Below are positions 2,455 to 20,441 of a stretch of 20,441 nt of DNA, piece after piece. The notes below the pieces were generated by a model. The model ran no database searches. It saw only the letters and a program-made list of their open reading frames with translations, and had not been told where the DNA came from. A program made the position numbers and the translations under genes. Location of the stretch: IMG/VR virus record IMGVR_UViG_3300010155_000136, positions 1 through 20,441 of that record, one strand, 5' to 3'. Source of the DNA: a virus. Each line of letters opens with the position of its first letter. The stretch's first letter is position 1.

Positions 2455-5400
2455 ATGGCAGAATCAAAATTCCTTAAATGGCAAGACAAAGACGGGGATA
2501 TGTTAGCTGACGCATGCGCAGATCTAGTAGATATCCCGGAAGCAAATGTATGTTGGGACTGCACTCCTAAACCTAGTGCAGTAGTACCGGATTGGTTAAG
2601 TACTACAAAAGACTCCCCCTTCCTTAATGAACAAGAATGTCTCTATCAAATCACTATAATAACAGAATATAAGACTACAATAACTGCGTCATTGTTGGAA
2701 AAAGATACTGAGAATGTCCTAACGCCGGAAGAAGCGGAAGAAGGCATTGAAGAGCGCTTTGAAGAATATGTAGACGAGGCCATGGAAGCCTTATTGGAAT
2801 ATTATAATAAGGATACATCCGAAGAATCAATAGAAGCGTTGAAAGAGGTTGTGGATTATACGGAATATGATTTAGATCCCCGACCACGTTCGCGCTTAAA
2901 ACTTCTTTATTCAGTACCATACTCTGATTTAGAGGCGATAGAAGAAGCCGAAGATGAAGAGGACGAGGAAGAAGCCGATGGAGAAGATACAGAAGTATCT
3001 TATAATATCTCCGATCTTAAAGTTAAGTTAATTAAAATTCGAAAGGGACTTAATTTGTATAGTCGCTATCAAAAGATCTATATGGCAGTAGAAGGAGGAG
3101 GATTATATGTAGATGATTCCACCTCATTATATAGAGAAGTGGAAGGACTAGGGGATCCCGCGGCACCAGTTCAATCACAGTGGTCGCCCACTGTTTTTAG
3201 TTTGTCTCCATATGGAGATTTAGGACTACTACCCAATTCGGTAATGGGAAAAATCTTACCAGACCTAGACAGTTTTTTGAATGGAAAGGGTTATAATATT
3301 CGCGGTGTAGGATTCGGTGGTGGATTTAAAGATAAAGTGATAAGTGTGGAGTTTAAATTTTCTAAAAAATTCGAATTAAAGCTCCTTAAAATCTTTACCG
3401 AAGGATGCGGAGAAAAGCCCATTCTGTTTATTAAAAACCTGAGCGGTTTAAAGAACAAGCCATCTTTTAAAGACCCTACGGCTATGGCCTATCTTGCACG
3501 ACTGGATGATATGGAGCGAGATCTAGAAGCTCGCGAACCAAAACCGTGGCTAGAATTTGTCAAAGAACATACATACCCAGCCATTTATTCGAGTATTAAC
3601 GCAGCACACTCTAATACCGATCCAGAAAATAGCGTTGGTAGTTGTATTGCGGCTAATTTACAAGAAGAAGGAAAACAACTTGGTCAGGATATTATGGATG
3701 AGGTTTTTAGTATTGGAGATGCTATTGAATATCAATTTCATAAAAGTTTGTGTCAAAAAAGTTTAGGAAAAACCGTTGAACAATTTGGCAAATTGGGTAT
3801 TATTTACGATCCAAATACCGAAGAATCAAAGAACTGGAAAGTGATGGCAATGGAGCAAGCCTTTAAGGAACTGGAATCCGATGATCAAGTGTTTGTAAGA
3901 TTTTGCGCATTAATTGGAGGATTAGCTGCTCACGGCGCCTTTCCAAATTTGGGAATTGGCAAAGAATTAGATGATTTATGGAAATTTGGGTTCGAACGAG
4001 TAAAGGAATGCGGACTGTTAGGGCTCTCAGTAGACGCAATTCAGTGTTTGATGGGTGGTCTTTCACTGGAAGACGCGCTCGCTAAAATAATTCAAACAGC
4101 TTTAAGGACAATGTCTATCGAGAATTTTGGAGATTTATTTATTGGGCTTCCGCCAGATAAACAAGATGAATTAGATGCGCTTGTAAAAAAGAAATTGGAA
4201 AGTGGAGATATTTTTGAGGCCAGCGATCAAGGAGGCCTCGCCGGCGCCGGTCAAGAAGTTTCTGATGCGTTAGCTGGACAAGTAAGCGTTAATACAGATA
4301 CATTACATATTTGGGGTGATCGCGAATTAATTGAAGAAGAGAAGAAAAAAGAGAAGTCGACCGGTATGCGTGAAAACAAAGGAATGACGCCCACTGAGAT
4401 GCAGCAATCCTCCCAATTACAAACAAGAACATTGGCCCAACAACTGGATGTAAAATCGCAAGCGCAAAACCAGCTAAGTCCCAATATTGTATTGGAGGCG
4501 TATGCTCTGGCTTTGATAGAAACTTATTCTGATAATTTATTGGATTTAATCGCGGAGCTTAATAAGTTTCCCGGCGCACCGTTGATCGCCCGGCTCTTGG
4601 CGGCTTTGGATTGTCCACGGCCTCCGATTTTAAATCCGAGTGTTATGGATTGGCTTAAAGATTTAGAATTGCCCTGGTGCCGCCACCGCGGCGAAGTGGT
4701 AGCACCACGTCTTGAAAATCCTTTTGGATGGATTCCCAAGTGGGCTGATTTTTGGTCATTCTTGTGGGATGCAATTAAGGCAGCAATTACCGCCGCCTTG
4801 GTTAATATTCTAATGAAATTGCTCGTCAAATTGTGTCAGCTTATAGGAAATGCTATGTGTAAGGCGTTGGAAGTGGCGGGAGATCTAGCAGCCTCACTGC
4901 CTGCCATGGCCACCGGTCGCACTACTTTTCAAGATGTGGTTCGTGATTCCATTTGCGGTGATGATGCCACACAAGAACAGATTGAAAATACGGTAATCGA
5001 TATGGTTTCTTCGATGGGAGTGGGTGCTGCGGCCTTGGCCGACACAGAACAAGCACTGTCCTTCGCTGAAGATATTTCCTCGGCGTCCACAGTTAATGAA
5101 ATATATAATGCATTTTTAGGTGAACCAGGAGATGATTTTTTGACAATTTGCGATCAAATTATTGAATTTGAATATCCGGACTATCGTTCGGCTCTTCCGA
5201 ATAAAGATGCCCTAGGCGGCTTTTTCTCTAATATGGGTAATATACTTCCCGAAGATGTTAAAAAAGAAATGAAAGATTTAGTCCGCGCACCCTCACGTCT
5301 CGATTCAATGCCGGCTAATCCCACACTTTGTGCCACGCCTGAACAGCTAGACGACTTTAAAGATTTAAGATGCCAACTGTTAGAAGGAAGAGCGACCCAG

Positions 5401-8400
5401 GAACAATGTAATCAAATGTTCGACAACATGCAGAACAAGGCTCTCCGCGACTTGGATAATTTAGGCTCCGTGCTTCAATGCGGTATTCCCTGCCATATAG
5501 CAGATAATATGCCTCCTCTGGTTTCAGATCCCGGCTGTGACAATGGAATTATTCCTTTTGAAGAACCATCAGAGGTAGCAGCCACCACTGGCGCACTAAG
5601 TGATGACCTAGATCAATTGAAAATTGATTTTTCATATGATATGTTAGGCAACGGCCCTGGAATGGCAAATTGGGGACTCATCAATATGATCCTCTGTGAT
5701 ACTATGGGAATGCCTTTTACCGCACACCAAAGAAAGGTGTTCGGTGATTTTGGAAAACAAAATTATGTTGATTTTTATGTTAATGAGACCGAGTCGGAAA
5801 CCGGCGAAGCATATGCTCTCGCAGTGGACCAAAAAGGAGCATATCCAGAAAAAGTGGCAGGATGGCTAGAAAGCTATCTCCAAGATATGGGAGCAACAGG
5901 CGTAACTTTTGAGTCCTCTAATGATATTGAGGAAGCCACCACCTATAAAAAATCATTTGAAGCATTTGGTATTTCTAGTTTCCGCGGAAGCCCACAGCAA
6001 TTGTTGATGATACCTGATATGGGATATAATGTCGAAAGAAGCGCACCAGATTTAGAAACGGAGCAAATTGTTTTTACTAAAAATGCTCGGACAGCAACCC
6101 CAGATATGACTTTGGATTATTATGACAATGGTGCCGGCGAAGCAGATAATGCTTTTGGTTATGGGTTTAATATAGAAATGTTTCTCTCGGATATTGAGGA
6201 GAGCGTCGACATCGAAACAGGAAAAGATGTATATCATAATAGAAAAGATGATAATGTAAGAATTAAAATTACAGATATATACAATGTAGGTTCAAATCCC
6301 AATCCGGCTACTGAGTTTATGACCAAAGCCGAAAAAGCGGAAGCTGCGGTCGGTACCGATGACGACGAGACCGTCATTACATCCCGAGAGTTTGAATTTT
6401 TAGCAGTGGATGACACCTTAAATAAGCTTTTTATTGAATTTAATTTAGATGAAGATCAAGAGGCTAAGAAAGGGGCATCCTTTCGCCCATCATATTATAC
6501 TGATTTTTTGAATACTTTTGAAACTCATCAAGATTATCTTCCTCAAATTATATTATTAAAGAATTTGCTCTCCGACTCCGGAACTGATGTGGAAGCAAGC
6601 ACGCTTAAAACATCATATGATACTTTTATGAGTGCCATTACCGACACATTTATTGATGCCGTAGCTCAAAATTCTTCTTCTTTTATGTACGGAGCGGTTT
6701 TTGATGACTTAACGACCGAAGATATAGAATACTTGACGGAAGATGGGGAGCTTTATTATAAGGCAACAACAGATGAGGGGGAGCCTTATTCAAATGATGA
6801 CCAAATTTTAGGCATTAGTCGGATGCAATACGAAGTAGATAATGGAGAGAGGGAGGGAGAAAATCGGGTGTTTTATTTGGATCCCATGCAATATGGGGGG
6901 AATTATATGAATCCTCCCATCTATATTAAGCCGCTTGAAAACAAAGGCTGGCTTGGATTTGTAGATATTATGTTTCCTGAGCTAAGCCCATGTAAGCCAT
7001 ATAGAACCGACTTAATTGATTTTGCCGATATTGATCAAAAGATCAGCGAAGCTTATCCATTTATTCCGGAAGATGAACGTCTTAAATCGGATCCAGATTG
7101 TGTTTTAGAACTGCCGTACAACAGAATTCTTGAAAGACCGTCTGCGGCTGGGTTACAAGGATTAATTATGGGAGCCATTAGGATCTATGCTAGCGTGCAT
7201 TTCATAAAAGCATTGAGCACCTTTACTAAATTTTATCCCAAGTTTCCAGATACATACAGTTCCATGTATGCATCTTATATTGTAGAGGACATGGAGAAGA
7301 GTTTTAAAAATGCCCAAGAAGCAAAATGGTTAGAATTTTTTAATCCCTTTAAGGATGAAGAGTTTTGGTATGCGTTTTTAGAACAATCAGTTCAAATGTA
7401 TGCACGAAGAGTAGACAGTGGTGAGATCGAAACACCTCCGAAGACTGTATTAGAGGCCCTTACAGCATTAAATGATAAACAAGAAATATTTGAATATGCA
7501 GATCGAGAAGATTTAAGAGAAGAAAAATCTGATGGTTCTGTAAGCTTCTTTAAAACTTTGAAGAATTATCGTGCTGAAAAGAATCTCGAAGCGGTCCAAA
7601 AGACAGAGGATTTAGCTAAAATTGTTTTAACTGAATTAGTGATGGAGCAATTAGGTTATATGGGCGAAAAGTTTGTAGATAACCTTAAAATTCTCGGCAT
7701 GACTCCCGATATCTTTGATTTGGATTATTATCTTTTAACAGACCTTACACAAGGAGGAGTGGATTTAGATTTGAACAAAGAAATCAAAGAAGAAGCTACG
7801 GACTTTGAAGAGGGAGAAGAACAATATACTGACGGTGGCGAATTATATGTAAAAGAAAAGAATGATGAAGATGCAGAATTTGAAGAAGGAGAGGAATATG
7901 TGGGCTACTATCACGTTTATACAGATGAAGAGGGGGAAATTGTTTATAGAGCCGGCGAATTCCAGGTTGAAGATGGAGATACCCAGGATCTATTAGCGCC
8001 TTTTGCGACGAAGGTTACTGTTCCAATTGGGGATGTGGAAGAATATGATTATACGCCTTCGACTGATGCTACGCGTCCTTTCGTGATAGAGAAATATATT
8101 AGTATCGAGGGGACGAGGTATGCGCCTTCCACAGCTAAGGAAATTATTATGAGTAATGATAATGCCTTGACTATTTCTGAGGTTTATCCTGGCACCATGG
8201 AGCTAGTGACCAACGAAGATTCTGGCCAAGTAGTTGGCGTAAAAGGCGAACTTGGAGTACGTTATGGGTTACAGTTTTCAATAGTTATAGACGGTTCTAA
8301 AGTAGAGGTCACATATGTAGAAATTGATGCCTTAGATTTGCCTATTAGTCAATTTATGCCTTTTGAAGGAGATAGTAAATTATTATTATGTTTGATTAAC

Positions 8401-8943
8401 CTTTTGAAGATTGATCATAAATTTCGTATAATGTCTCATTATATTTTTCCTTTAAATAAAATAACTTCATTAATTGCCATTTATAATGATTATGCATTTT
8501 TATCCTCTATTGGAGAGATCACCGCGGATAGAGGATCCTCGGGAGCCGCGATTGGTGCCGGCGCGGAAGGAGAAAAACCCGGCATGGCAGTAGAAATGGT
8601 GGATGGAAATATAGCTACAACTTTAAGTGGCCCTGGATGGGCCAATGTAGTGGATAGGCCCAAATTGACTCTTTTTGTGCGCACGTGGGACGAGTGGGAT
8701 AAACAATTATTAAGAAATTCTAAAAGTCGTATTAAAAAAATATTTAAAGCTTATTACAATTTTAGAGATTTTGATCCGGACAGCAAAGATGCAGAAGATG
8801 ATGCAGGAAAACTTTTTAGCGCCGCACTAAGGGAAAGATTCAAACCAGCCCCGGGCCAGCGCCTGTTACCATGGTGGAAAAAAAGAATGCAGCGCTCTAA
8901 TCCCTTTAATTCCAAAGGTGAACTCTGCGAAAAAGAGGATTAG
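2455..8943 (+). CDS. Giant acidic virion protein of unknown function (2162 aa)
   Basis: I do not recognise this protein. It begins 14 bases after the previous stop, behind AAGGT (2444-2448), and lies between hub-type and wedge-type baseplate genes, so a large tail or baseplate component is likely. Visible parts: Cys 21, 33, 36 and 62 near the N-terminus; a Glu-rich helical stretch (about 90-135); a nearly pure acidic run (about 161-180); a conserved-looking block at 200-390; a Gly/Ala patch near 597-600; a Trp-rich then hydrophobic/amphipathic segment (about 759-806); nine cysteines between 834 and 1081; a second acidic region with a repeated FEEGEE motif (1784 and 1809); and a basic C-terminus (KSRIKKIFKAYYNF, then PWWKKRMQR). 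There is no signal peptide. The frame is uninterrupted throughout, so this is a real gene and not a pseudogene. Alternatives are an enlarged baseplate hub protein or an ejected internal protein. Confidence 0.55.
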   Translation: MAESKFLKWQDKDGDMLADACADLVDIPEANVCWDCTPKPSAVVPDWLSTTKDSPFLNEQECLYQITIITEYKTTITASLLEKDTENVLTPEEAEEGIEERFEEYVDEAMEALLEYYNKDTSEESIEALKEVVDYTEYDLDPRPRSRLKLLYSVPYSDLEAIEEAEDEEDEEEADGEDTEVSYNISDLKVKLIKIRKGLNLYSRYQKIYMAVEGGGLYVDDSTSLYREVEGLGDPAAPVQSQWSPTVFSLSPYGDLGLLPNSVMGKILPDLDSFLNGKGYNIRGVGFGGGFKDKVISVEFKFSKKFELKLLKIFTEGCGEKPILFIKNLSGLKNKPSFKDPTAMAYLARLDDMERDLEAREPKPWLEFVKEHTYPAIYSSINAAHSNTDPENSVGSCIAANLQEEGKQLGQDIMDEVFSIGDAIEYQFHKSLCQKSLGKTVEQFGKLGIIYDPNTEESKNWKVMAMEQAFKELESDDQVFVRFCALIGGLAAHGAFPNLGIGKELDDLWKFGFERVKECGLLGLSVDAIQCLMGGLSLEDALAKIIQTALRTMSIENFGDLFIGLPPDKQDELDALVKKKLESGDIFEASDQGGLAGAGQEVSDALAGQVSVNTDTLHIWGDRELIEEEKKKEKSTGMRENKGMTPTEMQQSSQLQTRTLAQQLDVKSQAQNQLSPNIVLEAYALALIETYSDNLLDLIAELNKFPGAPLIARLLAALDCPRPPILNPSVMDWLKDLELPWCRHRGEVVAPRLENPFGWIPKWADFWSFLWDAIKAAITAALVNILMKLLVKLCQLIGNAMCKALEVAGDLAASLPAMATGRTTFQDVVRDSICGDDATQEQIENTVIDMVSSMGVGAAALADTEQALSFAEDISSASTVNEIYNAFLGEPGDDFLTICDQIIEFEYPDYRSALPNKDALGGFFSNMGNILPEDVKKEMKDLVRAPSRLDSMPANPTLCATPEQLDDFKDLRCQLLEGRATQEQCNQMFDNMQNKALRDLDNLGSVLQCGIPCHIADNMPPLVSDPGCDNGIIPFEEPSEVAATTGALSDDLDQLKIDFSYDMLGNGPGMANWGLINMILCDTMGMPFTAHQRKVFGDFGKQNYVDFYVNETESETGEAYALAVDQKGAYPEKVAGWLESYLQDMGATGVTFESSNDIEEATTYKKSFEAFGISSFRGSPQQLLMIPDMGYNVERSAPDLETEQIVFTKNARTATPDMTLDYYDNGAGEADNAFGYGFNIEMFLSDIEESVDIETGKDVYHNRKDDNVRIKITDIYNVGSNPNPATEFMTKAEKAEAAVGTDDDETVITSREFEFLAVDDTLNKLFIEFNLDEDQEAKKGASFRPSYYTDFLNTFETHQDYLPQIILLKNLLSDSGTDVEASTLKTSYDTFMSAITDTFIDAVAQNSSSFMYGAVFDDLTTEDIEYLTEDGELYYKATTDEGEPYSNDDQILGISRMQYEVDNGEREGENRVFYLDPMQYGGNYMNPPIYIKPLENKGWLGFVDIMFPELSPCKPYRTDLIDFADIDQKISEAYPFIPEDERLKSDPDCVLELPYNRILERPSAAGLQGLIMGAIRIYASVHFIKALSTFTKFYPKFPDTYSSMYASYIVEDMEKSFKNAQEAKWLEFFNPFKDEEFWYAFLEQSVQMYARRVDSGEIETPPKTVLEALTALNDKQEIFEYADREDLREEKSDGSVSFFKTLKNYRAEKNLEAVQKTEDLAKIVLTELVMEQLGYMGEKFVDNLKILGMTPDIFDLDYYLLTDLTQGGVDLDLNKEIKEEATDFEEGEEQYTDGGELYVKEKNDEDAEFEEGEEYVGYYHVYTDEEGEIVYRAGEFQVEDGDTQDLLAPFATKVTVPIGDVEEYDYTPSTDATRPFVIEKYISIEGTRYAPSTAKEIIMSNDNALTISEVYPGTMELVTNEDSGQVVGVKGELGVRYGLQFSIVIDGSKVEVTYVEIDALDLPISQFMPFEGDSKLLLCLINLLKIDHKFRIMSHYIFPLNKITSLIAIYNDYAFLSSIGEITADRGSSGAAIGAGAEGEKPGMAVEMVDGNIATTLSGPGWANVVDRPKLTLFVRTWDEWDKQLLRNSKSRIKKIFKAYYNFRDFDPDSKDAEDDAGKLFSAALRERFKPAPGQRLLPWWKKRMQRSNPFNSKGELCEKED
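7804..7896 (+). repeat. Imperfect FEEGEE repeat within the giant acidic protein
   Basis: Residues 1784-1789 and 1809-1814 are both FEEGEE, encoded by similar but not identical codons (starts at 7804 and 7879), 25 residues apart. Each is followed by an aromatic segment (QYTDGGELYV; YVGYYHVYTDEEGE). This looks like a small tandem module of about 25 residues with one clear and one diverged copy. Synonymous differences argue against a very recent duplication. Confidence 0.4.
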
Positions 8944-8981: not shown

Positions 8982-9350
8982 ATGACTGCTTTTGGTGTAG
9001 CACTACCTTTACGACGGAGCGATTCCGACGGTTTTGTGATGATAAGAACAATTAAGCACTTGGTTCGTCAAAATTTAAAAATGTTAGTTTTAACAACGCC
9101 GGGGGAAAGAGTAATGTTGCCGGATTACGGAGTGGGACTCAGGGCATATTTGTTTCAAAATTTCCAACAAGATACGATAGCTCAAATTGATGCACGAATC
9201 CGACAACAAGTAAGAAAATATATGCCAGCAGTCAGTATTGAATCAGTTTCCTTTAATACCACTAACCAGGAAGTTAATACTCTTTCGATTTCTCTCAATT
9301 ATTCAATACCCAATATCAATGTAAAAGATTTGTTAAACATTACTATTTAA
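8982..9350 (+). CDS. gp25: Baseplate wedge protein, T4 gp25 / GPW family
   Basis: A 122-aa protein, within the usual size range of the gp25/P2 gpW family. The family signature is clear: a helical lead (MIRTIKHLVRQNLKMLVLT, residues 20-38), then TPGER (39-43) with the conserved Glu-Arg pair, then LPDYGVGLRAYLF (46-58), a helix with QIDARIRQQVRKYMP, and a closing beta hairpin ending in DLLNITI. In contractile tails this protein sits at the wedge-sheath junction and bears a sheath-like handshake fold that helps start sheath polymerisation. It is followed after 16 bases by the gp6/J-type gene, the canonical W-J order of P2-like and T4-like phages. Function is assigned from family resemblance and synteny, and the two agree. 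Confidence 0.93.
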   Translation: MTAFGVALPLRRSDSDGFVMIRTIKHLVRQNLKMLVLTTPGERVMLPDYGVGLRAYLFQNFQQDTIAQIDARIRQQVRKYMPAVSIESVSFNTTNQEVNTLSISLNYSIPNINVKDLLNITI

Positions 9351-9366: not shown

Positions 9367-11163
9367 ATGCCAGACGATCAAAAAAATATAGTTCCTATCG
9401 ATTATACCCATCGAGATTATCAAACCATAAAAAATGATTTGATACAAATTGCAGAAAGATTTTATCCCGATACCTTTCAAGATTTTAGTGAAGGCTCCTT
9501 TGGAGCATTAATGTTGGATGCCGTAGCTTATGTGGGAGACCAACTTTCCTTTTATTTGGATTATAATGTTAATGAGACATTCTTAGATACTGCTTATCAA
9601 TATAATAATGTTCTAAGACATGGACGAATTTTAGGTTATAAATATACCGGGCGCCCCTCGACGTACGGTAAAATTGCCATGTATGTGTTGGTACCCGCAT
9701 CCACAACAGGTGTAGGCCCAGACGAGAATTATATTCCCATTCTTCAAAATGGAAGCAAGTTTACATCTCAGAGCGGATTAGGGTTTATTTTGACTGAAAA
9801 TGTAGACTTTGCGGATCCCAAAAACCCAGTTGTGGCGGCTCGCGTTGACACGACGACCGGCGCTCCTACACAATATGCGATCAAAGCTTATGGAAATGTT
9901 GTTTCGGGCGAGTTCAAAGAACAAAGAATTCCGGTAGGAGGATATCAGCGATTTTTACGCTTACGATTGGCTAGCAATAATGTATCTGAAATTGTTTCAG
10001 TAGTTGATTCACAAGGAAATCAATATTATGAGGTAGATTATCTTTCACAAGATATGGTGTATAAAGAAATCCCTAATATAAATTTTAGAGAAGATACTGT
10101 GGCATCGGTAATAAAGCCCTATCTTGTCTCACGTAAATTTGTTGTCCAAAGAGATCGAATAAATACTTTTTTACAATTTGGAAGCGGCAAGTCAGGCGCA
10201 ACCAATGTAATCGCCGAACCACAAACCGTCGCTATTAATGCATTCGCGCGAGATTATATAACAGACACAACGTTTGATCCTACTCGGTTAATTGAAAATG
10301 AAAATTTAGGAATAGTTCCATCTAATACCACATTGACTGTGATTTATAGAACTACAAACCCTACAAATTCGAATATTGCGGTAGGAGGCCTAACAGGGGT
10401 ATCTAGTGCTATTGTTAATTTTAGTGACATAACACAGCTAGTTGCAACCACCGCCGAAACGGTGAGCAACTCTTTAGAGATCAGCAACGAAGAACCCATT
10501 ATGGGTAACGTATCTCAACTTTCTTCTACGGAGGTTAAAAGACGCATTTATGATACTTTTCCGACCCAAAACAGAGCGGTCACACAAGCTGATTATGAAA
10601 ACGTAGCTTATCGAATGCCGGCTAGTTTTGGTTCTATTAAAAGATGTTCGGTTCAAAAAGACCCCGACTCTCTTAAACGAAATTTAAATATGTATGTTAT
10701 CTCAGAAGATAGTTTTGGAAAATTAATTCAAACCAATTCTACTATTAAGAACAATTTAAAGGTATGGCTCAATCAATATAGAATGATTAACGACACTATT
10801 GATATCCTAGATCCCTATATCATTAATTTAGGGATTGAGTTTGTAGTAAGAGCTTCTAGTGGTGTGGACAAATTTAGTTTATTAGACAATTGTATTACAA
10901 CTTTAGGAAATAAATTTGCAACGCCGTTTTATATTGGCGAGCACATGTATATTAGTAATATTTATCAAGAATTAAAAAATGTACCTGGTGTTTTGGATGT
11001 TATGAAGGTGATGATAAGTAATAGACTGGGCAACAATTACTCTGGTGTAGAAGTACAAATTAATGATAACTTATCTCCCGACGGAACATATTTAATAGCT
11101 CCTAAAAATGCAATTTTTGAAATTAAATATGCGGCAACCGATATTACAGGAAAGATTAGATAA
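9367..11163 (+). CDS. gp6: Baseplate wedge protein, T4 gp6 / baseplate J-like
   Basis: A 598-aa protein close to T4 gp6 in size (about 660 aa) and longer than P2 gpJ. The N-terminus has the typical block IDYTHRDYQTIKNDL (about 11-25), FSEGSFGALMLDAVAYVGDQ (from about 40) and YLDYNVNETFLDTA. This is the helical region that in gp6-type proteins leads into the baseplate J domain. The middle (about 95-370) is beta-rich. Near the C-terminus, WLNQYRMINDTIDILDPYII (about 467-486) followed by NLGIEFVV is a hallmark of gp6-like proteins. In the particle, gp6-type proteins dimerise into the ring that holds the wedges together around the hub. Its stop TAA overlaps the next gene's ATG by one base. The downstream neighbour is not directly the I-type protein; one extra gene lies between. 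Confidence 0.92.
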   Translation: MPDDQKNIVPIDYTHRDYQTIKNDLIQIAERFYPDTFQDFSEGSFGALMLDAVAYVGDQLSFYLDYNVNETFLDTAYQYNNVLRHGRILGYKYTGRPSTYGKIAMYVLVPASTTGVGPDENYIPILQNGSKFTSQSGLGFILTENVDFADPKNPVVAARVDTTTGAPTQYAIKAYGNVVSGEFKEQRIPVGGYQRFLRLRLASNNVSEIVSVVDSQGNQYYEVDYLSQDMVYKEIPNINFREDTVASVIKPYLVSRKFVVQRDRINTFLQFGSGKSGATNVIAEPQTVAINAFARDYITDTTFDPTRLIENENLGIVPSNTTLTVIYRTTNPTNSNIAVGGLTGVSSAIVNFSDITQLVATTAETVSNSLEISNEEPIMGNVSQLSSTEVKRRIYDTFPTQNRAVTQADYENVAYRMPASFGSIKRCSVQKDPDSLKRNLNMYVISEDSFGKLIQTNSTIKNNLKVWLNQYRMINDTIDILDPYIINLGIEFVVRASSGVDKFSLLDNCITTLGNKFATPFYIGEHMYISNIYQELKNVPGVLDVMKVMISNRLGNNYSGVEVQINDNLSPDGTYLIAPKNAIFEIKYAATDITGKIR

Positions 11164-11165
11164 TG
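11161..11165 (+). promoter_or_regulatory. TAATG stop-start overlap
   Basis: The stop of the gp6-like gene (TAA 11161-11163) shares its last base with the ATG of the next gene (11163-11165). This arrangement normally means translational coupling by reinitiation, and so matched amounts of the two products. Confidence 0.8.
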
Positions 11166-12881
11166 GCCATTAAAAGGTATACGGCATCCGCAGATACAAC
11201 AATTGTTAATGCCTACCAATCAAATTTAACCACTCGTGGAACCGGCGCCAATGCAGGTTTAGCGGACATTATGGAGACTTTTTCTATCTACGGCCGTATT
11301 ACTACGAGTTCGGCAGAATTATCTCGAATTTTAGTTAAATTTCCCATCACAGATATCTCTACGGATCGAACTAATAGTGTCATTCCGGCTAGCGGAAGCG
11401 TAAGCTATTATTTGCGATTGTTCAATGCCTCTCATTCAAAAACTGTTCCTGTTGATTATACTCTTACTATCTTAGCCGTATCACAGTCGTGGCAGGAAGG
11501 AGTGGGACTAGATTTAGAGGAATATAAAGATCTTACTAAGGGAAACACGGGCGCCAATTGGATGAGCGCATCAAACACAGCCTATTGGACTGATATCAGT
11601 AACACTGTTTTAGCCGGCGGCTCTTATATTACCGGTGGGAATGTGGCAGGTGTCGTGAATACTGAAATATTTACATTTACGCAAGATTTTGCCAGTGGCC
11701 TAGAAAACGTGGAAGTAAATATCACCCCATTGGTTGAACAATGGATTGCCGGTACTTATTCAAATTACGGAGTAGGAGTTCATCTCTCAGCAAGTTATGA
11801 AGCATTTGAATCCGGTTCTGCAAATTCTGTGGTGTCTCGTATTCCAGGCCAGCTAGCTCTTGATGCACTAGATGACACCCAAAGTGTAATTTATAATCCT
11901 AGTGGATCAACTCGCTCTTATTATACTAAAAGATTTTTTGCAAGAGGTTCTCAATATTTTTTCAAGCGCCCTGTTTTAGAGGCACGTTGGGATAGCCGCA
12001 TAACTGATGATCGAGGAGACTTTTATTTGAGCAGCGCGCTAGCCCCCGCAAGTGATAATTTAAATACCATTTATTTATACAATTATGTACGTGGAAGGTT
12101 AAAAGAGATTCCTGCATTGGGTGACGATAAAAGAATTTATGTAAGTATCTTTTCTGGCTCTACGGGCGGTTTTTATGAAGGTGGCGATGGGGAGGATGTC
12201 CCTCCCTCTACGGTTCCCGTATCTGGCACGACCGGAAGCACTGAAATTTTATCTCCCGATGATGCCGGACATGTGAGTAGTACTAATTTGTTGGTGATCA
12301 CGGGAGGCATTGTTTCCACTGGAATTTATAGCGCTTCCTTTGCCTTGACAGGAAGCACTACTCTTAAAACAATTTATGATGTATGGTTTACGGGAAGTGA
12401 TTCAACGACGAGTGCCTTTGATGCGATCACTCAATATTTTACTGGAACAATAAAACCCCTAACATTTACGGGCCGCCAAAGTAATCGTCACCCTGTATAC
12501 TATTTAAATATTACTAATTTACAAGAAAAATATCGCGCTGGCCAATCTGCTCGATTTAATTTGTATGTGCGAGATAAATATTGGAGCCCCAATATTTATA
12601 CTAAAGCAAACTCTAATATTGAAACAACGACGATTGTGAGTGCTTCTTATAGAGTATATCGAACCCTAGACGCGTACGACGCGATTCCCTATGGTACAGG
12701 AAGCGATCTTCATACGGCCTTATCGTATGATGTGTCGGGTAATTATTTTGATTTCGATATGAACTTATTAGATCCAGGTTATGAATACGCATTTAAATTT
12801 GCATTTTATGACGAAGAATTAAGCAGTTGGACAGAGCAAGATCAGGTGTTTAAATTTAGAGTAGAAAATTATGAGTATTAA
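11163..12881 (+). CDS. Beta-rich virion structural protein between J- and I-type wedge genes
   Basis: A 572-aa protein. The N-terminal 220 residues run YTASADTTIVNAYQSN (6-21), a segment ending SIYGR, LSRILVKFPITDIS, and then a long beta-rich stretch ending near VEVNITPLVEQWIAGTYSNY. This resembles DNRLRE-type beta-sandwich domains, which have a 'lock-in' phrase such as VTPLVQEWVNG...NYGV near the end; NYGVGVHLSASYE follows here. The middle (about 330-440) is Ser/Thr/Gly-rich with short repeated SGSTG/TGSTT segments, probably exposed and variable. The C-terminal 120 residues look like another compact beta domain (YDVSGNYFDFDMNLLDPGYEYAFKF). There is no signal peptide. Coupled to gp6 by TAATG and overlapping the next gene by 11 bases, it is probably a baseplate-attached fibre or adaptor. 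The specific function is unknown. Confidence 0.6.
   Translation: MAIKRYTASADTTIVNAYQSNLTTRGTGANAGLADIMETFSIYGRITTSSAELSRILVKFPITDISTDRTNSVIPASGSVSYYLRLFNASHSKTVPVDYTLTILAVSQSWQEGVGLDLEEYKDLTKGNTGANWMSASNTAYWTDISNTVLAGGSYITGGNVAGVVNTEIFTFTQDFASGLENVEVNITPLVEQWIAGTYSNYGVGVHLSASYEAFESGSANSVVSRIPGQLALDALDDTQSVIYNPSGSTRSYYTKRFFARGSQYFFKRPVLEARWDSRITDDRGDFYLSSALAPASDNLNTIYLYNYVRGRLKEIPALGDDKRIYVSIFSGSTGGFYEGGDGEDVPPSTVPVSGTTGSTEILSPDDAGHVSSTNLLVITGGIVSTGIYSASFALTGSTTLKTIYDVWFTGSDSTTSAFDAITQYFTGTIKPLTFTGRQSNRHPVYYLNITNLQEKYRAGQSARFNLYVRDKYWSPNIYTKANSNIETTTIVSASYRVYRTLDAYDAIPYGTGSDLHTALSYDVSGNYFDFDMNLLDPGYEYAFKFAFYDEELSSWTEQDQVFKFRVENYEY
12871..12881 (+). promoter_or_regulatory. 11-base gene overlap at the start of the last giant gene
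   Basis: ATG 12871 begins inside the last codons of the preceding gene, whose TAA is 12879-12881. Only a weak purine run (AGAG, 12858-12861) precedes it, so translation of the giant protein probably depends on ribosomes finishing the upstream gene. Confidence 0.6.
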
Positions 12882-15800
12882 GAAACTTTTTGGTGCTGAC
12901 ACATCACGAAATTATCTTGGAGACATTACTGAACAAGAAGCATTTGAAAATGCAGAATCGGTAAGAAATGTTAATGCGCTTAAATTAAAGCAAGACACAT
13001 TTGTTCCACAGATAGATTATACTGATCCTAAAAACTTTGCGAAATATGGATCGGCCTATCTTTATTATAAATCAGCGATAGAGAGAATTATTGATTTTTA
13101 TCCTTATGACGGATCAGACGCAGAAATAAATCAATTTTATAATAATTCTCTGGATATTGAAAAGTATATTTTTAATAACTTATATCCTCGTACTAACGGC
13201 CACATTATAATGAGTTCGGACGAGTGGGGAACATTAAGTGGGAGCCTTCAAAGTGGATATGGACTGCCAAGTTCTTTGGAATATATCGATCTTAAAGGGG
13301 GTCCTCATACAATTTATGACGGTAACAAAACAACCCCTCAACTGTTTAGAGATCCTTATTCTTCGAAGCTACAATTTTCTAATCTTTATGAAACTGATTT
13401 ATATGTGTCCGCAAGTTTGCCAGCAGGCTATGGAAGTGGTTCCCGAGAATCTAATTTAAAAGCCGATTTTGATAAAGGTGTTACGATTGAATTTTGGACG
13501 AAAACAGGTTCTATCGATTTGTCCTTAACCAATAAACAAGTTTTGGTAGATGTTTGGAACAATGAGTTATCTTCTAGTGCTTACGCCGGCGCCGCCGGAA
13601 CTAATCCGAATCCCCACTATGGAAGAATTACCGTAATGTTCAATGGTTTATCGGCAGGCTCTCCTTTTAGACTGACGGCCCAATCCGGCGCCACGGGCAT
13701 TTTTGAACAGAGTATTGGGACAGATATTACAGTTGATACATTTGATGATTGGAAACATTACGCTCTCGTAATGTATAACACTGGAAGCGATTTCATTACC
13801 AAACTTTATGTAGATGGTAGAATTAATGATATTAATACTGCAACTAGTACTACTGTTAATGAAATCAATTCTAAAAACATGACAGGTCGCTTGGGAGCTT
13901 TATTAACAGCCCCTTCTGGCGCGGGTGGTAATTCACAAGAAGTAGAAAACATGATCGGCGCCGGAAAACTTAGTGGCTCCGTTGATGAATTTAGATATTG
14001 GAAAGTTATGAGAACCGGTAAACAAATTGGAAAAGATTGGTTTACACAAGTACGAGGGGGCACAAATACTGATATTGCGAACACGACTCTCGGGGTCTAT
14101 TATAAATTTAATGAAGGAATAAGCGGAGATAGCACGACGGATAGTAGCGTACTGGATTATAGTGGGCGCCTTTCTAATGGAACATGGACAGGTTATGAAT
14201 CTGCAGCACGTTCGACAGGTTCAGCGATAATTGAAGCCTCTGCTTCAACTCAGGAATATCGAGATCCCATTATTTATAGCACCAATTCAGAAGTAAGCAC
14301 TTTAAAAGAAAATTTGCTGGCCAGTGGTTCTTATCATGATGCCAATAATAATGCTGCCTTTAAAGATTTGATTCCTAGTTGGGTTTTGGAAGACGATGAG
14401 TTAAGCGAAACCAATAATATTAATATTGTGACCCACATTATGGGAGCCTATTTCGATAAAATTCATGCTTACATTTCTGCTCTCCCCACCTTTAAGAATA
14501 CTTTATATACAAGTGGCGCCTATACGCCTCTTCCTTTTGCTGAACATCTCCCTCAGTCGCTGGGTTTATATTCGCCTGAATTGTTTATTGATGCAGATGT
14601 GATGGAGAAATTTTTAAATCGCGATGATACAACTTTATTTCAAGGAGATTTAACAGAAACTAAAAATCTAATTTACCTTAATCTCTACAATAACATTGCT
14701 AATATTTACAAAGCCAAAGGAACACAAAAAGCTGTTCGTAATATATTGAGATGTTTTCATGCGGGCGAAGAACTGGTTAAACTAAATGCGTATTCTGACA
14801 ATAATATTTATACTCTTTCCAATAATCTTCAACAAACTACTGTCAATAAGAATTATCTTAATTTAAATAATGCAAATAATTTACAGAGCGTGGTATATCA
14901 GGCGCAAGATCCAAGCAATGGAGAATCGCGCGGATACATTTCGGGGAGCGAAGATGCCGCGACCAATGAAAATCCTTATGGACTTACATTAGAAGCAGAT
15001 GTACAGTTTCCATCTTATGTGTTGGGCCCAGATGACCCGGTAGATCGACAACCACTTACCATTTCATTGTTTGGAATGTACTCAGCATCTGTTGATGATG
15101 AGTCGGATCCAACTTTTTTTGCGTCAGATAAAACCAATTTTCAAATATTTGCCGTTCGCTCCGAGCGAGAGTCCGCTGATGTTTATTTTAAATTAACCTC
15201 CTCTCTGGCTCCCTTCCCTCTTCCAGAGCTTACAAGTAGTGTTTTCTTTAATGTTTATGATAATCAACAATGGAATTTTTCTGTAAGAATAAAGCCAAAG
15301 AACTTCCCTCTCGCCGATATGGTTTCTGGATCGTCTCCCGCCTCGTACGATGTAATTTTTAAAGGAATAAATACCGAACTGGGATATGTTAAAGAGAGTT
15401 TTTATCTAACTTCTTCTATTGTTGTGTCAGAAGCCTCCTCTCTGTTAAAGGGGGCAAAACGAGTTTTCGGCGGCGCCCATCGCACAAACATGACCGGAAC
15501 CCTATTGGCCCCTTCTGATGTTCGTATAGGAGGGATAAGATATTGGGGCAAGTACTTAGACGATATTAGTCTTGAACAACACCTATTCGATGTAAATAAT
15601 ATCGGAATTTCTTCATCCTATCAGCATATTTCACCGTTGGATAGTAACAATGTAGGCTACGATATATTAAATTCTAACATGTTGTTTTTAGATTGGAATT
15701 TTGGTAATGTGACCTCATCGGATTCTTCGGGTAATTTTTATGTAACTGACTATAGTTCAGGATCCACACTAATACGCAATAATTATGGATGGGTAGGGGA

Positions 15801-18800
15801 CATCGCCGGCTATCAATATAGTGGATATGGTTATGGATTTAGTGGCTCTGCTACAAATGTAGTTGATAAAACCCCCATCAATACATTTAAATTTATTGAT
15901 CCAGAAATGGTGGTGGCGTCAGATATGATTCAAATTTTGTCTGATGATGATGTGGTATTTGGGAGTGATCTTGCTAATTCTCCCAATTCTATTCCGAGCT
16001 ACCGATATGTTCTAGAAAAAAGTCAATATGCTGCTATATCGCAAGAAATGCTGCAATTTTTTGCAGGGGTGGTTGATTTTAATAATATCGTTGGAGAGCC
16101 TGTTAATCGTTATCGAGATCGTTACAAAACAATGGAAAAACTACGAGAAACGTTTTTTCGCCGCGTCACCGATGTTCAACAAGTAGAAAAATTTATTACC
16201 TACTATAAGTGGTTTGATGATGCACTCGCAGAAATTATAGGACAATTATTGCCTGCATCGGCCGATTTTAATCCTGATATTTTTAATACGGTTGAAAGCC
16301 ATGTTTTGGAAAGAAATAAATATAAAAGCCAATTCCCTACAATAGAATTTGAAGAGCCAGATCTTAATGCTGCGCTAGAAGGCGTATTTGCATCGAGTTA
16401 TCCTTATGTAGAGGGTTCTACTCCATTGCCTTCATCGCCCCGCTCCACTGAAATTAAAAGATGGTATTGGGATCACCGTGCCCTACGACAGGCAGACGAA
16501 ATTACATCACGCAATAGCACCGTGGATGAACAACGAAATATTGTTAGAGATGTGGTATACAACAACCCTCATTTAAGTCAAAGTATTAGTTTCATTTCTG
16601 GAAGTGGTGGCATAGCCGAAAGCACTGCACGTAGTTTTGCGGTTAATCGGCTAGCAAAAACGTTTTTATTGAAAGCATATAGTCCATTTTCTACCGGGGC
16701 TCTCTCCCTTAAAGGGGGTACTAACTTTACCAATAATAAAAATATTAATTTTACATATAACGCACTATATCCCGCTGGGCCGGTTAATACAGAAAACAAT
16801 GTATATGTGCCAGAAAACATTCTGGTAGGATTTACAGACGAGATGGAAGGATACCATGAAACCACCGATCTAAATGATGTAAACGCCAAATATAAGAGAT
16901 ATCTCCCCGTTAATCACGGCCGCAATTGGCAAAATGGATATGGCTATGCTAATGTGAAATCTTCATATGTGTTTCCCTTTAACATTATTAGTCCCGCCGT
17001 TTCATCGGGATTCAATAAACAGGTCATTGACCGAGTTACCGGTAATATTCAAATTACTAATTTGCATCATGATGGGTATGGCACATTCATTGAAGTACCC
17101 ATGCAGGGGCCATTTACGAATTATGCGGTGGGGGGCCATCAATCACGTCATATAAAATTAAATACAGGTAGCGATGATTATACCAATAGGCCCGAAGCGT
17201 GGAAAATATTATTAGGTCAGTGCGCTGGAACCACTAGTACAAGTGGTGCCATTGGGATGGCAGGCGCCGACTATCCGTGGCCTGAAGCAAATGAGGAGAG
17301 TGTTCGCCCCTATCCCTTAACCGGAGCGCAAAAAGCTGTTTACTATCGCGATTTTATTGCTAAGAGCCCCCTGAACATTAAAAACTTAAAGATCGTCACA
17401 GGATCCACCCCACTGGGAAATTATACCAGCAATTACGAAATACTACACAGCGTCGGCGCGTTTGCTAACCCACGAAATTTTATTGAAAATCAACCCACCT
17501 TGCCTACTGAGTTAACGCGCAGTACGCAAGGTCGCTCTATGCTGAGTCTCCACAGAACAGATGAAGAACATTTCCAATTTGTTTCAGATTATTCGGTAAG
17601 TTATTTAACGAGTGCTGCTGGTAAATCTATCATCACAGGAAGATTTGCGGCCCCCGGAGGAATGGAAGTGATGTCCCGAGGATATTTGGATATCCGTGGC
17701 TCAGAATTCTCGGTTTATAATAGTTTGCTTAATAGAAACTTATCTGTCATTAAGCCTTCCCAAGGGCCTAGTGGGACATTTTCAGAAGCCACAGGCGCTG
17801 GCGGCCCCGGCATTCGAGTGAGCGATATTCATCATAAAGATTTTGGGATGCGGGCACACCTAGCCCGTCACAGCGCTCAATTTGGTCGAGATTCACTAAA
17901 TGTGACGGCGTCCGATAATCTTCCTGGAAAAGTATATGATCAATTACCCGCAGCCTATAAGATCAATCGTAATACTAAAAATCGCTTAACCCAGATAGAA
18001 AATTATGGCACTGTTACTACAGGCGCCCTTTATGACAACTGGTTTGTACAGTATCAAATTCCGAGATCAGATAGACAATACTCGTGGTTTACGACCTCCT
18101 TAGCAGATCCTAATTCTGATCGGTATTTGAGTTTTGCCCCGGTTCATGGAGCACTTGCAGGTTATTATTCTAGTTCTGCGGGGATTGTCTCATATTTTGA
18201 TTTTGTATCCGCCAGTAGCGTTTCTTCCTCTACACTACCAACTTTATTTCAGCCAACTACACGAGTAGCTGTTTTTACACTAGATCCTCTTTCAGCTTCC
18301 ACAAATAATATATTAGGTTTCCCGACGGCATCTTCTCCTAATTCTTATTTTAACTCAGTTTTTATCGAGGGAACGGATGCAGCAGTTTCGGTTGCCATTA
18401 CTGGTTCTGCTGCAAACTTCTTCAATTTGTTAATGACGAGCCGCGGCACTACCTATGGGTGGAATTGGAAAAAGACACACCTGCAGAGCAATCCCGTTAC
18501 AATGGGCGAAAGACGCGCTAACGAAATAACAGTGGCAGATGAAAATGATGTTTTATCACGCTATCGCCTTCATCCACTTTCTTTACGAGGCCGGCCCGCT
18601 TTAATTAATTTTGATGCACCCACATCCCCTCTCTCGGCGCGCGACAGAAATTCGAGTCGTCCCAATACAGTCACCATTAAAGCTACAAACAATAATGAGT
18701 TAATATATTTTGGTTCGGTAGACTTAGCAGATTATGTACTTCCTACTATTGATATTACAACGACGCCCTTCTATCAATTAATTGGTGCTAGCCGCACCCA

Positions 18801-20441
18801 GGGCTATAATTTAAATTGGATTGCTTATACTGAAGCTTTGTTCCCCTCTGCACGTAACGAATTCATGTCTTACTCTACTGAGAGAATAGACTATGATAAT
18901 AAATTTTGGAGAGACAGCTTAGATAACAGGGTCACACTGGGCTCGGCCGAGCCTAACTCATTTAATATAACCATTATGTTATCGCAAAGTAGTTGGCCAC
19001 TAGACGCACAAGAAGATTTCGAAACACGCACTGGTCCGGTCACGGGAAGCGCCCCTAGTGAGTTTGCGTTTTCTGTTCAAGGCAAAGCAGGAGAATTACA
19101 GAACAACTACTTTTCTTTCTTCACCGGAACCCTGTCGTCCTCCGGCACACCCGGCGAAGGGATTGACTATCGGGCCCCCCGCATGCTGCGCATGGGCGGA
19201 CTGTATTCTCGGAAACATATGCTGTCGACCCGCCGCTCGCCGCGATCACCGCAGGGTCCGGCTGCCATTGAAACTTACGGACCGGGTACTTTTACAGAAA
19301 GACTGGAATTATATTCGGGCGAAGCCAAGTGGGAAACAAACACACAAGCTGGGATTTTAATTAAAAGTGATGATACGACTGTTTTTGAAAGCCATCCTTC
19401 TGAGCCATGGTTTAATGAATACGACGATTTTAGACATGATCTTAAATTATTGGCAAAAGGCTATTCGATTGTGCCCGAATTCCGAATTAGTGAACATGTG
19501 GAAGATTATCTTAGATATGGAGTAAACGCATGCCGAGATAAAATTGACACCTTTACTATTCCTGGCACAATTTATACTAGCGCAACAGCTTCATTTTACA
19601 AAGATTTTTCTAATTCCGAATTTATGCAGGATTTCCTTAAAGTGAAGAGTGATTCGCTTCTCACAGCCAAAGAGATTCGTTTAATATGCAGCGCCGCCAT
19701 TCGTTTTAACCCTTATAAAGGCTTCTACCCAGCCCAGCGTACATTAGATCTAGTCTCTCAGTTTTCTCGTTCGTATGCAGAAAACTTAATTGGGAACGCT
19801 TTGTCTACTGCGGGCCTAGACACAACCACGGCCAACTATGGCTTTCCTAAATTAGTACAACCACAGCAAGCCGCCGGCGCTTTGAGACCTTTATTCCAAA
19901 CCTTGTTTGCTCCTGGAATTCTATATAACTCTATTAAATCAGGGCTAGCGGTCGATTATCCTATTGTTGTGGATGAGACCAAAGTTGATAGAACATCGAA
20001 TTATTATGGCGTGGCCAAAGGCCCCAATACAGATAATTGGGGCCTTACATCGGCTGGTAGTGGCAGTAGTGGGATTACGGGTTATGAGGGCGGAGAATTT
20101 TGGGATATGAGAATTCCGTTTGAAGCCATAGTGGAACCTGAGCAATATTTCAACGGGCTTAGCTTTTTAGATGTTGAACCGCATCCTTCCATGAGTTTAT
20201 TTGTAAGTAGCGCATGGGGCGCCACCTCCGGCGATCCGATTTATGGTATGATGGCTAATAACTTTTTTGGTGAAGTTGCCTCCTTCTTCTTAAAAGACCA
20301 ATCATTCACCCGCTTAGAGTCGAACACGATAACCGATGATATTAGATTCGCCAGTGGATCCATCTACGGCGCCCGCGCTAAATTACGTCATTCTATTTCT
20401 GGGTCTCGTTCTTATGAATATGAGTCTGGTTCCGATGGAGA
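12871..20441 (+). CDS. Giant LamG-containing baseplate/fibre protein, gp7/tail protein I-like motif, incomplete at the window end
   Basis: Translating every line in frame from ATG 12871 gives no stop up to the window edge, so at least 2523 residues are encoded and the C-terminus is missing. Visible parts: a helical N-terminal region (1-180) with YLYYKSAIERIIDFYPYD; a LamG/concanavalin-like domain (about 200-415) with VTIEFWTKTGS, DDWKHYALVMYN, KLYVDGRI and GSVDEFRYW; a helical block with YKAKGTQKAVRNILRCF (613-629), resembling the KGT-xxAxR motif of P2 gpI/T4 gp7-type wedge proteins; a second concanavalin-like domain (about 704-910) ending VRIGGIRYWGKYLDD; a helical block (about 1050-1145) with EMLQFFAGVVDFNN and SHVLERNKYKSQFP; a Gly/Ser-rich beta region (about 1570-1860); and a late block (about 2150-2300) with VPEFRISEHVEDY and FNPYKGFYPAQRTLDLV. 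T4 gp7 is about 1030 aa, so this is far larger. Most likely a wedge protein enlarged with carbohydrate-binding domains. An adhesin/fibre role is the alternative. Confidence 0.72.
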   Translation, partial: MSIKKLFGADTSRNYLGDITEQEAFENAESVRNVNALKLKQDTFVPQIDYTDPKNFAKYGSAYLYYKSAIERIIDFYPYDGSDAEINQFYNNSLDIEKYIFNNLYPRTNGHIIMSSDEWGTLSGSLQSGYGLPSSLEYIDLKGGPHTIYDGNKTTPQLFRDPYSSKLQFSNLYETDLYVSASLPAGYGSGSRESNLKADFDKGVTIEFWTKTGSIDLSLTNKQVLVDVWNNELSSSAYAGAAGTNPNPHYGRITVMFNGLSAGSPFRLTAQSGATGIFEQSIGTDITVDTFDDWKHYALVMYNTGSDFITKLYVDGRINDINTATSTTVNEINSKNMTGRLGALLTAPSGAGGNSQEVENMIGAGKLSGSVDEFRYWKVMRTGKQIGKDWFTQVRGGTNTDIANTTLGVYYKFNEGISGDSTTDSSVLDYSGRLSNGTWTGYESAARSTGSAIIEASASTQEYRDPIIYSTNSEVSTLKENLLASGSYHDANNNAAFKDLIPSWVLEDDELSETNNINIVTHIMGAYFDKIHAYISALPTFKNTLYTSGAYTPLPFAEHLPQSLGLYSPELFIDADVMEKFLNRDDTTLFQGDLTETKNLIYLNLYNNIANIYKAKGTQKAVRNILRCFHAGEELVKLNAYSDNNIYTLSNNLQQTTVNKNYLNLNNANNLQSVVYQAQDPSNGESRGYISGSEDAATNENPYGLTLEADVQFPSYVLGPDDPVDRQPLTISLFGMYSASVDDESDPTFFASDKTNFQIFAVRSERESADVYFKLTSSLAPFPLPELTSSVFFNVYDNQQWNFSVRIKPKNFPLADMVSGSSPASYDVIFKGINTELGYVKESFYLTSSIVVSEASSLLKGAKRVFGGAHRTNMTGTLLAPSDVRIGGIRYWGKYLDDISLEQHLFDVNNIGISSSYQHISPLDSNNVGYDILNSNMLFLDWNFGNVTSSDSSGNFYVTDYSSGSTLIRNNYGWVGDIAGYQYSGYGYGFSGSATNVVDKTPINTFKFIDPEMVVASDMIQILSDDDVVFGSDLANSPNSIPSYRYVLEKSQYAAISQEMLQFFAGVVDFNNIVGEPVNRYRDRYKTMEKLRETFFRRVTDVQQVEKFITYYKWFDDALAEIIGQLLPASADFNPDIFNTVESHVLERNKYKSQFPTIEFEEPDLNAALEGVFASSYPYVEGSTPLPSSPRSTEIKRWYWDHRALRQADEITSRNSTVDEQRNIVRDVVYNNPHLSQSISFISGSGGIAESTARSFAVNRLAKTFLLKAYSPFSTGALSLKGGTNFTNNKNINFTYNALYPAGPVNTENNVYVPENILVGFTDEMEGYHETTDLNDVNAKYKRYLPVNHGRNWQNGYGYANVKSSYVFPFNIISPAVSSGFNKQVIDRVTGNIQITNLHHDGYGTFIEVPMQGPFTNYAVGGHQSRHIKLNTGSDDYTNRPEAWKILLGQCAGTTSTSGAIGMAGADYPWPEANEESVRPYPLTGAQKAVYYRDFIAKSPLNIKNLKIVTGSTPLGNYTSNYEILHSVGAFANPRNFIENQPTLPTELTRSTQGRSMLSLHRTDEEHFQFVSDYSVSYLTSAAGKSIITGRFAAPGGMEVMSRGYLDIRGSEFSVYNSLLNRNLSVIKPSQGPSGTFSEATGAGGPGIRVSDIHHKDFGMRAHLARHSAQFGRDSLNVTASDNLPGKVYDQLPAAYKINRNTKNRLTQIENYGTVTTGALYDNWFVQYQIPRSDRQYSWFTTSLADPNSDRYLSFAPVHGALAGYYSSSAGIVSYFDFVSASSVSSSTLPTLFQPTTRVAVFTLDPLSASTNNILGFPTASSPNSYFNSVFIEGTDAAVSVAITGSAANFFNLLMTSRGTTYGWNWKKTHLQSNPVTMGERRANEITVADENDVLSRYRLHPLSLRGRPALINFDAPTSPLSARDRNSSRPNTVTIKATNNNELIYFGSVDLADYVLPTIDITTTPFYQLIGASRTQGYNLNWIAYTEALFPSARNEFMSYSTERIDYDNKFWRDSLDNRVTLGSAEPNSFNITIMLSQSSWPLDAQEDFETRTGPVTGSAPSEFAFSVQGKAGELQNNYFSFFTGTLSSSGTPGEGIDYRAPRMLRMGGLYSRKHMLSTRRSPRSPQGPAAIETYGPGTFTERLELYSGEAKWETNTQAGILIKSDDTTVFESHPSEPWFNEYDDFRHDLKLLAKGYSIVPEFRISEHVEDYLRYGVNACRDKIDTFTIPGTIYTSATASFYKDFSNSEFMQDFLKVKSDSLLTAKEIRLICSAAIRFNPYKGFYPAQRTLDLVSQFSRSYAENLIGNALSTAGLDTTTANYGFPKLVQPQQAAGALRPLFQTLFAPGILYNSIKSGLAVDYPIVVDETKVDRTSNYYGVAKGPNTDNWGLTSAGSGSSGITGYEGGEFWDMRIPFEAIVEPEQYFNGLSFLDVEPHPSMSLFVSSAWGATSGDPIYGMMANNFFGEVASFFLKDQSFTRLESNTITDDIRFASGSIYGARAKLRHSISGSRSYEYESGSDG
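19141..19260 (+). other. GC-rich patch inside the last giant gene
   Basis: By hand count 80 of these 120 bases are G or C (about 67%), against 23 of 60 (38%) in the line 19321-19380. The reading frame continues through it and encodes a basic, Arg-rich segment (residues about 2101-2135; YRAPRMLRMGG, SRKHMLSTRRSPRSPQGP). There is no inverted or direct repeat at the edges that I can see. Confidence 0.7.

Follow-up and report, generated by a model that had tools for sequence, protein, structure and literature searches.

A giant viral gene with a tail-protein-I-like core and LamG-fold domains, probably an enlarged baseplate wedge subunit

The gene that runs off the end of the viral record IMGVR_UViG_3300010155_000136 most probably encodes a wedge subunit of a contractile-tail baseplate, in the position of gp7 or gpI, enlarged and equipped with LamG-fold domains. 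We favor this reading because the core of the protein aligns with P2 gpI in register at a KGT motif, the Tail_P2_I family falls on the same motif, the gene order is that of wedge genes, related records carry tail sheath genes and the core occurs in a single copy. If it holds, the wedge placement assigns a role to a gene that is among the largest in a widespread group of viruses, and names the 598-aa gp6-like protein as its candidate partner.

The giant reading frame and its relatives

The window, that is, the whole stretch of DNA analyzed, is the entire IMG/VR record of 20,441 bases. The giant gene occupies its 3' part (12871..20441, plus strand, as for all features below) and is represented by its 5' 2,523 codons. 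As the initial annotation had stated, a single frame stays open from the ATG at 12871 to the contig edge (12871..20439); since the window is the whole record and holds no stop in frame, the stop lies beyond the contig. With the same base composition, the probability of an open frame this long by chance is ~10^-70. Comparison with a relative whose protein is 84% identical (L003) gave 882 synonymous and 405 nonsynonymous codon differences, and the differences at codon positions 1, 2 and 3 (350, 172 and 1114) are found all along the frame; therefore, the whole frame is under purifying selection at the protein level. The same gene was found in 15 close relatives at first and later in 80 loci, which were kept out of at least 530: in IMG/VR, a relative of the giant core is encoded in more than 530 stretches, a count that is a lower bound. 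Fifty complete relatives measure 2,961–4,409 aa (median 3,496), and the 3' end of the studied gene is consequently short by at least several hundred codons. The original estimate of a chain of more than 2,500 residues was thus borne out, but the full length is ~3,000–4,400 aa.

At detectable similarity, the giant form occurs in no cultured phage of the collection searched. Direct matches were absent from phages, PHROGs, Pfam, NCBIfam and PDB sequences, bacterial and archaeal genomes gave no match, and a literature search found no paper describing these giant proteins. Members of the same family are present in UniProt and BFVD (A0A1B1IWQ4, A0A516MAV8, A0A0F7L9Z0 and others, 27–38% identical over the modelled part); they are uncharacterized proteins of uncultured marine viruses with no assigned function, folded there as pieces.

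Three genes precede the giant: a gp25-like wedge or sheath-initiator gene (8982..9350; PF04965, E 3.4e-17; phrog_261), a gp6/baseplate-J-like wedge gene of 598 aa (9367..11163; phrog_10646, E 1.7e-16) and a gene of 572 aa (11163..12881). The order gp25 – gp6 – 572 aa – giant is the same in the relatives, with similar lengths. The 572-aa gene overlaps the start of the giant by 11 bases, an overlap found exactly in 77 of 89 relatives, and its product is homologous (E 4.6e-10) to that of a gene at nearly the same place before the shorter, Mel-type proteins described below. Upstream of the gp25-like gene, 74–1399 shows a weak hub/lysozyme match (phrog_27932). T4-type gp23 capsid genes are present in six of the seven long related records and tail sheath genes in 6 of 10, and the sheath genes indicate that the giant-bearing viruses are contractile-tailed. 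The sheath frames behind L084, L075, L074, L052, L071 and L082 measure 968–1,138 aa, longer than T4 gp18 (659 aa), and other tail parts therefore seem enlarged too. A second very large ORF, of 2,162 aa with no family match, lies upstream of the gp25-like gene (2455–8943); its relatives have a long frame in the same place, of up to at least 2,083 aa, truncated by the ends of the loci. The gp6-like protein measures 598–599 aa in the relatives listed, and the adjacent giant varies by 1,400 residues.

The gp6-like protein led us to Flavobacterium phage immuto, Microcystis phage Mel-JY01 and LR756508, each with a gene not far downstream whose product, of 1,265–1,400 aa, is deposited as hypothetical (QQO92079.1 in immuto, WWT39511.1 in Mel-JY01). 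These products carry KTKGTERGLRALINCF and IPAR...KPNLLNRSK, and 64 complete IMG/VR members of this Mel-type family measure 1,188–2,214 aa. The giant profile (A3) matches the 1,265-aa immuto protein at E 5.7e-10 and the Mel-JY01 protein at E 1.8e-7; the giant itself matches an alignment of 56 Mel-type members at E 1.5e-27 over residues 475–1158, including its second LamG-like domain (LamG2) and the closing segment. Like the giants, proteins of the Mel-JY01/immuto type follow gp25 and gp6 and have the same scaffold, with the KGT core and a closing LPAR...LER segment; unlike the giants, they have neither the first LamG domain (LamG1) nor the long C-terminal extension. LamG2 is common to the giants, Mel-JY01, LR756508 and nearly all measured relatives, but is missing from immuto. 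Among members whose closing motif could be located by its pattern, most have ~400–575 residues between KGT and LPAR, which is the place of LamG2.

Scaffold, LamG domains and C-terminal extension

The layout of the N-terminal part was derived from an AlphaFold2 model of residues 1–1160 (pLDDT 73), sequence profiles and comparison with the Mel type. It begins with a conserved scaffold segment (residues 40–107, 12988..13191; GSAYLYYKSAIERI...YPYDGSDAE), the counterpart of the Mel-type SSA..R..NF segment (hhalign E 0.0025, residues 47–104 aligned). This is followed by LamG1 (residues 108–461, 13192..14253), the helical core (residues 462–640, 14254..14790), LamG2 (residues 653–906, 14827..15588) and a conserved closing segment (residues 1045–1157, 16003..16341) with the pattern EKS..IS.EM..FFAG...YYKWFDD...QLLPAS...ESHVLERNKY, which corresponds to LPAR...EPNVLERSK in the Mel type.

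The LamG-like domain that had been proposed at residues 200–415 is real, but larger: the whole of LamG1 is predicted to adopt a LamG/pentraxin fold (VIA Z 20.8, rmsd 2.8, 215 aligned). The second, concanavalin-like domain proposed at 704–910 was likewise recovered, as a predicted beta sandwich at ~653–905 homologous to the Mel-JY01-type region. A Foldseek search with the 1–1,160 model returned LamG/pentraxin-type proteins only. By sequence, PF13385 (Laminin_G_3) is found in 7 of 15 giant members at E 0.1 and exceeds its cut-off in L014 (199–364); LamG1 of the studied giant itself stays below the PF13385 threshold. The KGT motif does lie between the two LamG domains, as initially annotated, but these are insertions in a longer conserved scaffold rather than its flanks. 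In the Mel type the counterpart of the N-terminal segment almost adjoins the core, with only ~40 columns before it, and LamG1 is for this reason considered an insertion in the giants. Together with its flank GYGLPSSLEYIDLKGGP, LamG1 resembles the Mel-type post-KGT module YGIPQTILSIREYGGP and the start of LamG2 (E 3.6e-8; score 63.2, with 40 shuffles reaching at most 28.7), a likeness which suggests that LamG1 arose by duplication of this module. Between LamG1 and LamG2 of the giants themselves, no sequence similarity was found. Members of the giant family differ by insertions at residues 259, 684, 1432 and 2084. The insertions seen in single members, some of them with LamG, include ~2288–2451 in L038 (a protein with three PF13385 stretches, the best at 2288–2451), 259 in L013, L015 and L016, and 1432 and 2084 in L014; it looks as though modules could enter the chain at more than one site.

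From residue 1158 onward (residues 1158–2523 in the window, 16342..20441) the protein consists of a giant-specific extension. In the giants, the last ~1,800–3,200 residues are conserved as a separate block, and this block has no profile match in nine records of the shorter type or in immuto, Mel-JY01 and LR756508. In the C-terminal part of one complete relative (L010, residues ~2954–2997), the stretch ILPPQFDF...YIFEFEYKLDKDDLSYIWQNLAPR is highly conserved and was matched by none of the libraries searched.

A very long C-terminal part combined with LamG folds is what would be expected of an adhesin, and it is the 572-aa gene, not the giant, that directly adjoins gp6. The giant might accordingly be a peripheral adhesin docked through a borrowed gpI-like segment, with another protein, for example the 572-aa one, as the wedge in the place of gp7. 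We regard this as unlikely: conservation is high in the core as well as in residues 1045–1157, and the core is common to the shorter relatives, whereas the 572-aa protein is matched by DNRLRE alone, and weakly (NCBIfam, E 4.5e-4, below the cut-off). We also looked for a separate I-type gene with the core profile (A5). It matches exactly one place per record in 14 of 14 related records, and none of these has a KGT core outside the giant or a second copy of the core, though a very diverged gene could escape such a search.

Even less credible is the view that the product is a polyprotein, or a chain of fused baseplate proteins, which a phage protease cleaves to leave only the first ~1,160 residues as the wedge. 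The separate conservation of the C-terminal ~1,800–3,200 residues and their missing counterpart in the shorter family agree with such a product, but no cleavage site was identified, and neither the nine shorter-type contigs nor immuto, Mel-JY01 or LR756508 encode the C-terminal blocks as genes of their own. The idea that the C-terminal half exists as a separate gene in the shorter relatives was accordingly not supported.

The wedge-like core and the KGT motif

The resemblance of residues 613–629 (YKAKGTQKAVRNILRCF; 14707..14757) to the core of tail protein I, which had been noticed initially, withstood closer comparison. KGT is invariant in 61 giants, and K616-G617-T618 (14716–14724) remain invariant across 115 sequences comprising giants and distant relatives, two distant families. 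A scan of IMG/VR with P2 gpI gave near-identical copies that were useless as a profile, and we therefore built the gpI profile from 13 diverse gpI sequences from phage records. It aligns with the giant core at a score of 32.4 (P 3.6e-4), in register at KGT; the maximum among 100 column shuffles was 20.0, and none reached the real score. The same profile scored 31.5 against the Mel-type core (shuffles at most 19.2), and with relaxed settings the N-terminal LLP and LLPWLAW segments of gpI also fell in order with the giant core. The Tail_P2_I HMM (PF09684) gave matches in 9 of 22 records, each on the KGT of this gene and all sub-threshold: the best giant reached 10.7 bits (L029) and the best shorter relative 16.8 bits, with a cut-off of 20.6 bits. 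No curated family of PHROGs, Pfam or NCBIfam matched the core over its own cut-off, and by profile comparison the C-terminal part of gpI (EWWE...AKP.RSHL) did not resemble the closing segment. Another candidate family, TIGR02242, produced two weak matches only, both in shorter relatives, and was set aside.

Structure prediction, of residues 1–1160 and of the core alone, did not show a clear gp7 core but did not contradict one either. The monomer model of the core has a pLDDT of 69 and a pTM of 0.39, and Foldseek with the core alone found no match below E 1. In a VIA re-alignment of 71 chains, the top row was 8kea_c, the wedge protein gp32 of cyanophage A-1(L) (Z 3.8, rmsd 11); a chain of the Streptomyces contractile injection system baseplate came second (Z 3.1) and a chain of the diffocin triplex entry fifth (Z 2.8), both identified at the level of the entry. 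Chains of T4 gp7 or pyocin PA0619 were not among the VIA rows. These model-based matches weakly favor a wedge, by the identity of the matches and not by their scores. The wedge assignment made at the outset is thus upheld in part: the gpI register, the gene order and the sheath genes speak for it, but the fold matches to solved wedge proteins are weak.

It is highly improbable that the KGT likeness reflects chance or convergence on a helix-turn motif in an unrelated structural protein: although KGT-like helical motifs also appear in designed helical repeats (5cwl and 6e9r against the gpI profile), the giant matches are in register, always in the gene near gp6 and beyond the reach of every shuffle, with KGT unchanged in so many diverged sequences.

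Possible role and comparison with known wedge proteins

The P2 gpI family (Tail_P2_I; PA0619 in pyocin R2) has its core, KR..i....H..KGT..A...l..lG, in register with the giant and follows gpJ/gp6. It differs in its length of ~180–220 aa and in having no LamG, and the giant falls below the Pfam cut-off and leaves the gpI C-terminal part unmatched. As gpI neighbors gpW and gpJ, the giant neighbors gp25 and gp6 in a contractile-tail context, except that here one 572-aa gene intervenes.

Wedges of the (gp6)2-gp7 type have been described as (gp16)2-gp17 in XM1 (PMC10457771) and in the diffocin triplex (PMC11329794). By analogy with these and with (gp6)2-gp7 of T4, the giant core would pair with two gp6-like chains, six giant copies per baseplate would form the wedge ring, and the core bundle would bind the gp25-like sheath initiator. 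On the outside, the LamG domains and the C-terminal part of ~1,800–3,200 residues would serve as integral arms, contacting polymers of the host surface or carrying fibers, and the core would relay host contact to gp6, gp25 and the sheath. A single chain may thus be responsible for the cohesion of the baseplate as well as for contact with the host cell; for the LamG domains, sugar binding may be proposed from the predicted fold only. A more far-reaching version, in which the six copies carry all host-contact domains as arms, LamG modules insertable at several sites serve as swappable host-range cassettes and a separate short tail fiber would not be needed, is less probable.

The fusion of a wedge with carbohydrate-binding domains is already known at a smaller scale. 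In Vp4, the baseplate wedge Gp119 has carbohydrate-binding-module folds and decorates cells of Bacillus cereus (PMC11406892). Like the giant, it is a wedge protein with predicted sugar-binding domains, and its merged roles are experimentally supported (PMC11406892); unlike the giant, it is an 831-aa wedge of the A511 gp105 type, with CBM16-like domains and a Gram-positive host. The giants probably descend from an ancestor of ~1,200–2,200 residues of the Mel-JY01/immuto type, which probably gained the extra LamG domain, likely a copy of the post-KGT one, and the C-terminal extension. The resulting series of sizes (P2 gpI 176 aa, XM1 gp17 242, T4 gp7 1,032, Mel type ~1,370, giants 3,000–4,400) makes it possible to study the growth of a baseplate component and its acquisition of host binding.

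Among the known wedge proteins, T4 gp7 (1,032 aa) shares with the giant its place after gp6 and a presumed core located late (647–760, STKGIEAS), after a long N-terminal part; no LamG was found in it, and it is without such a C-terminal extension. Its residues 647–704 and 733–756 (STKGIEASYKFLFKVL) can be aligned, in this order, to the N-terminal helix and KGT. Against the merged profile T4 gp7 scored 28.2 (P 0.015), with none of 60 shuffles reaching this value; against the giant alone the comparison was not significant, since 4 of 60 shuffles reached the score. A match of the single T4 gp7 sequence to A3 fell off the core and was discarded. Of the two families to which the core had been likened, gpI is therefore matched in register and the sequence link to T4 gp7 is suggestive only. 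Residues 733–756 of T4 gp7 (L104:8061-11159), FYSTKGIEASYKFLFKVL, resemble a diverged KGT motif, a possible link at the level of sequence between gp7 and the gpI family.
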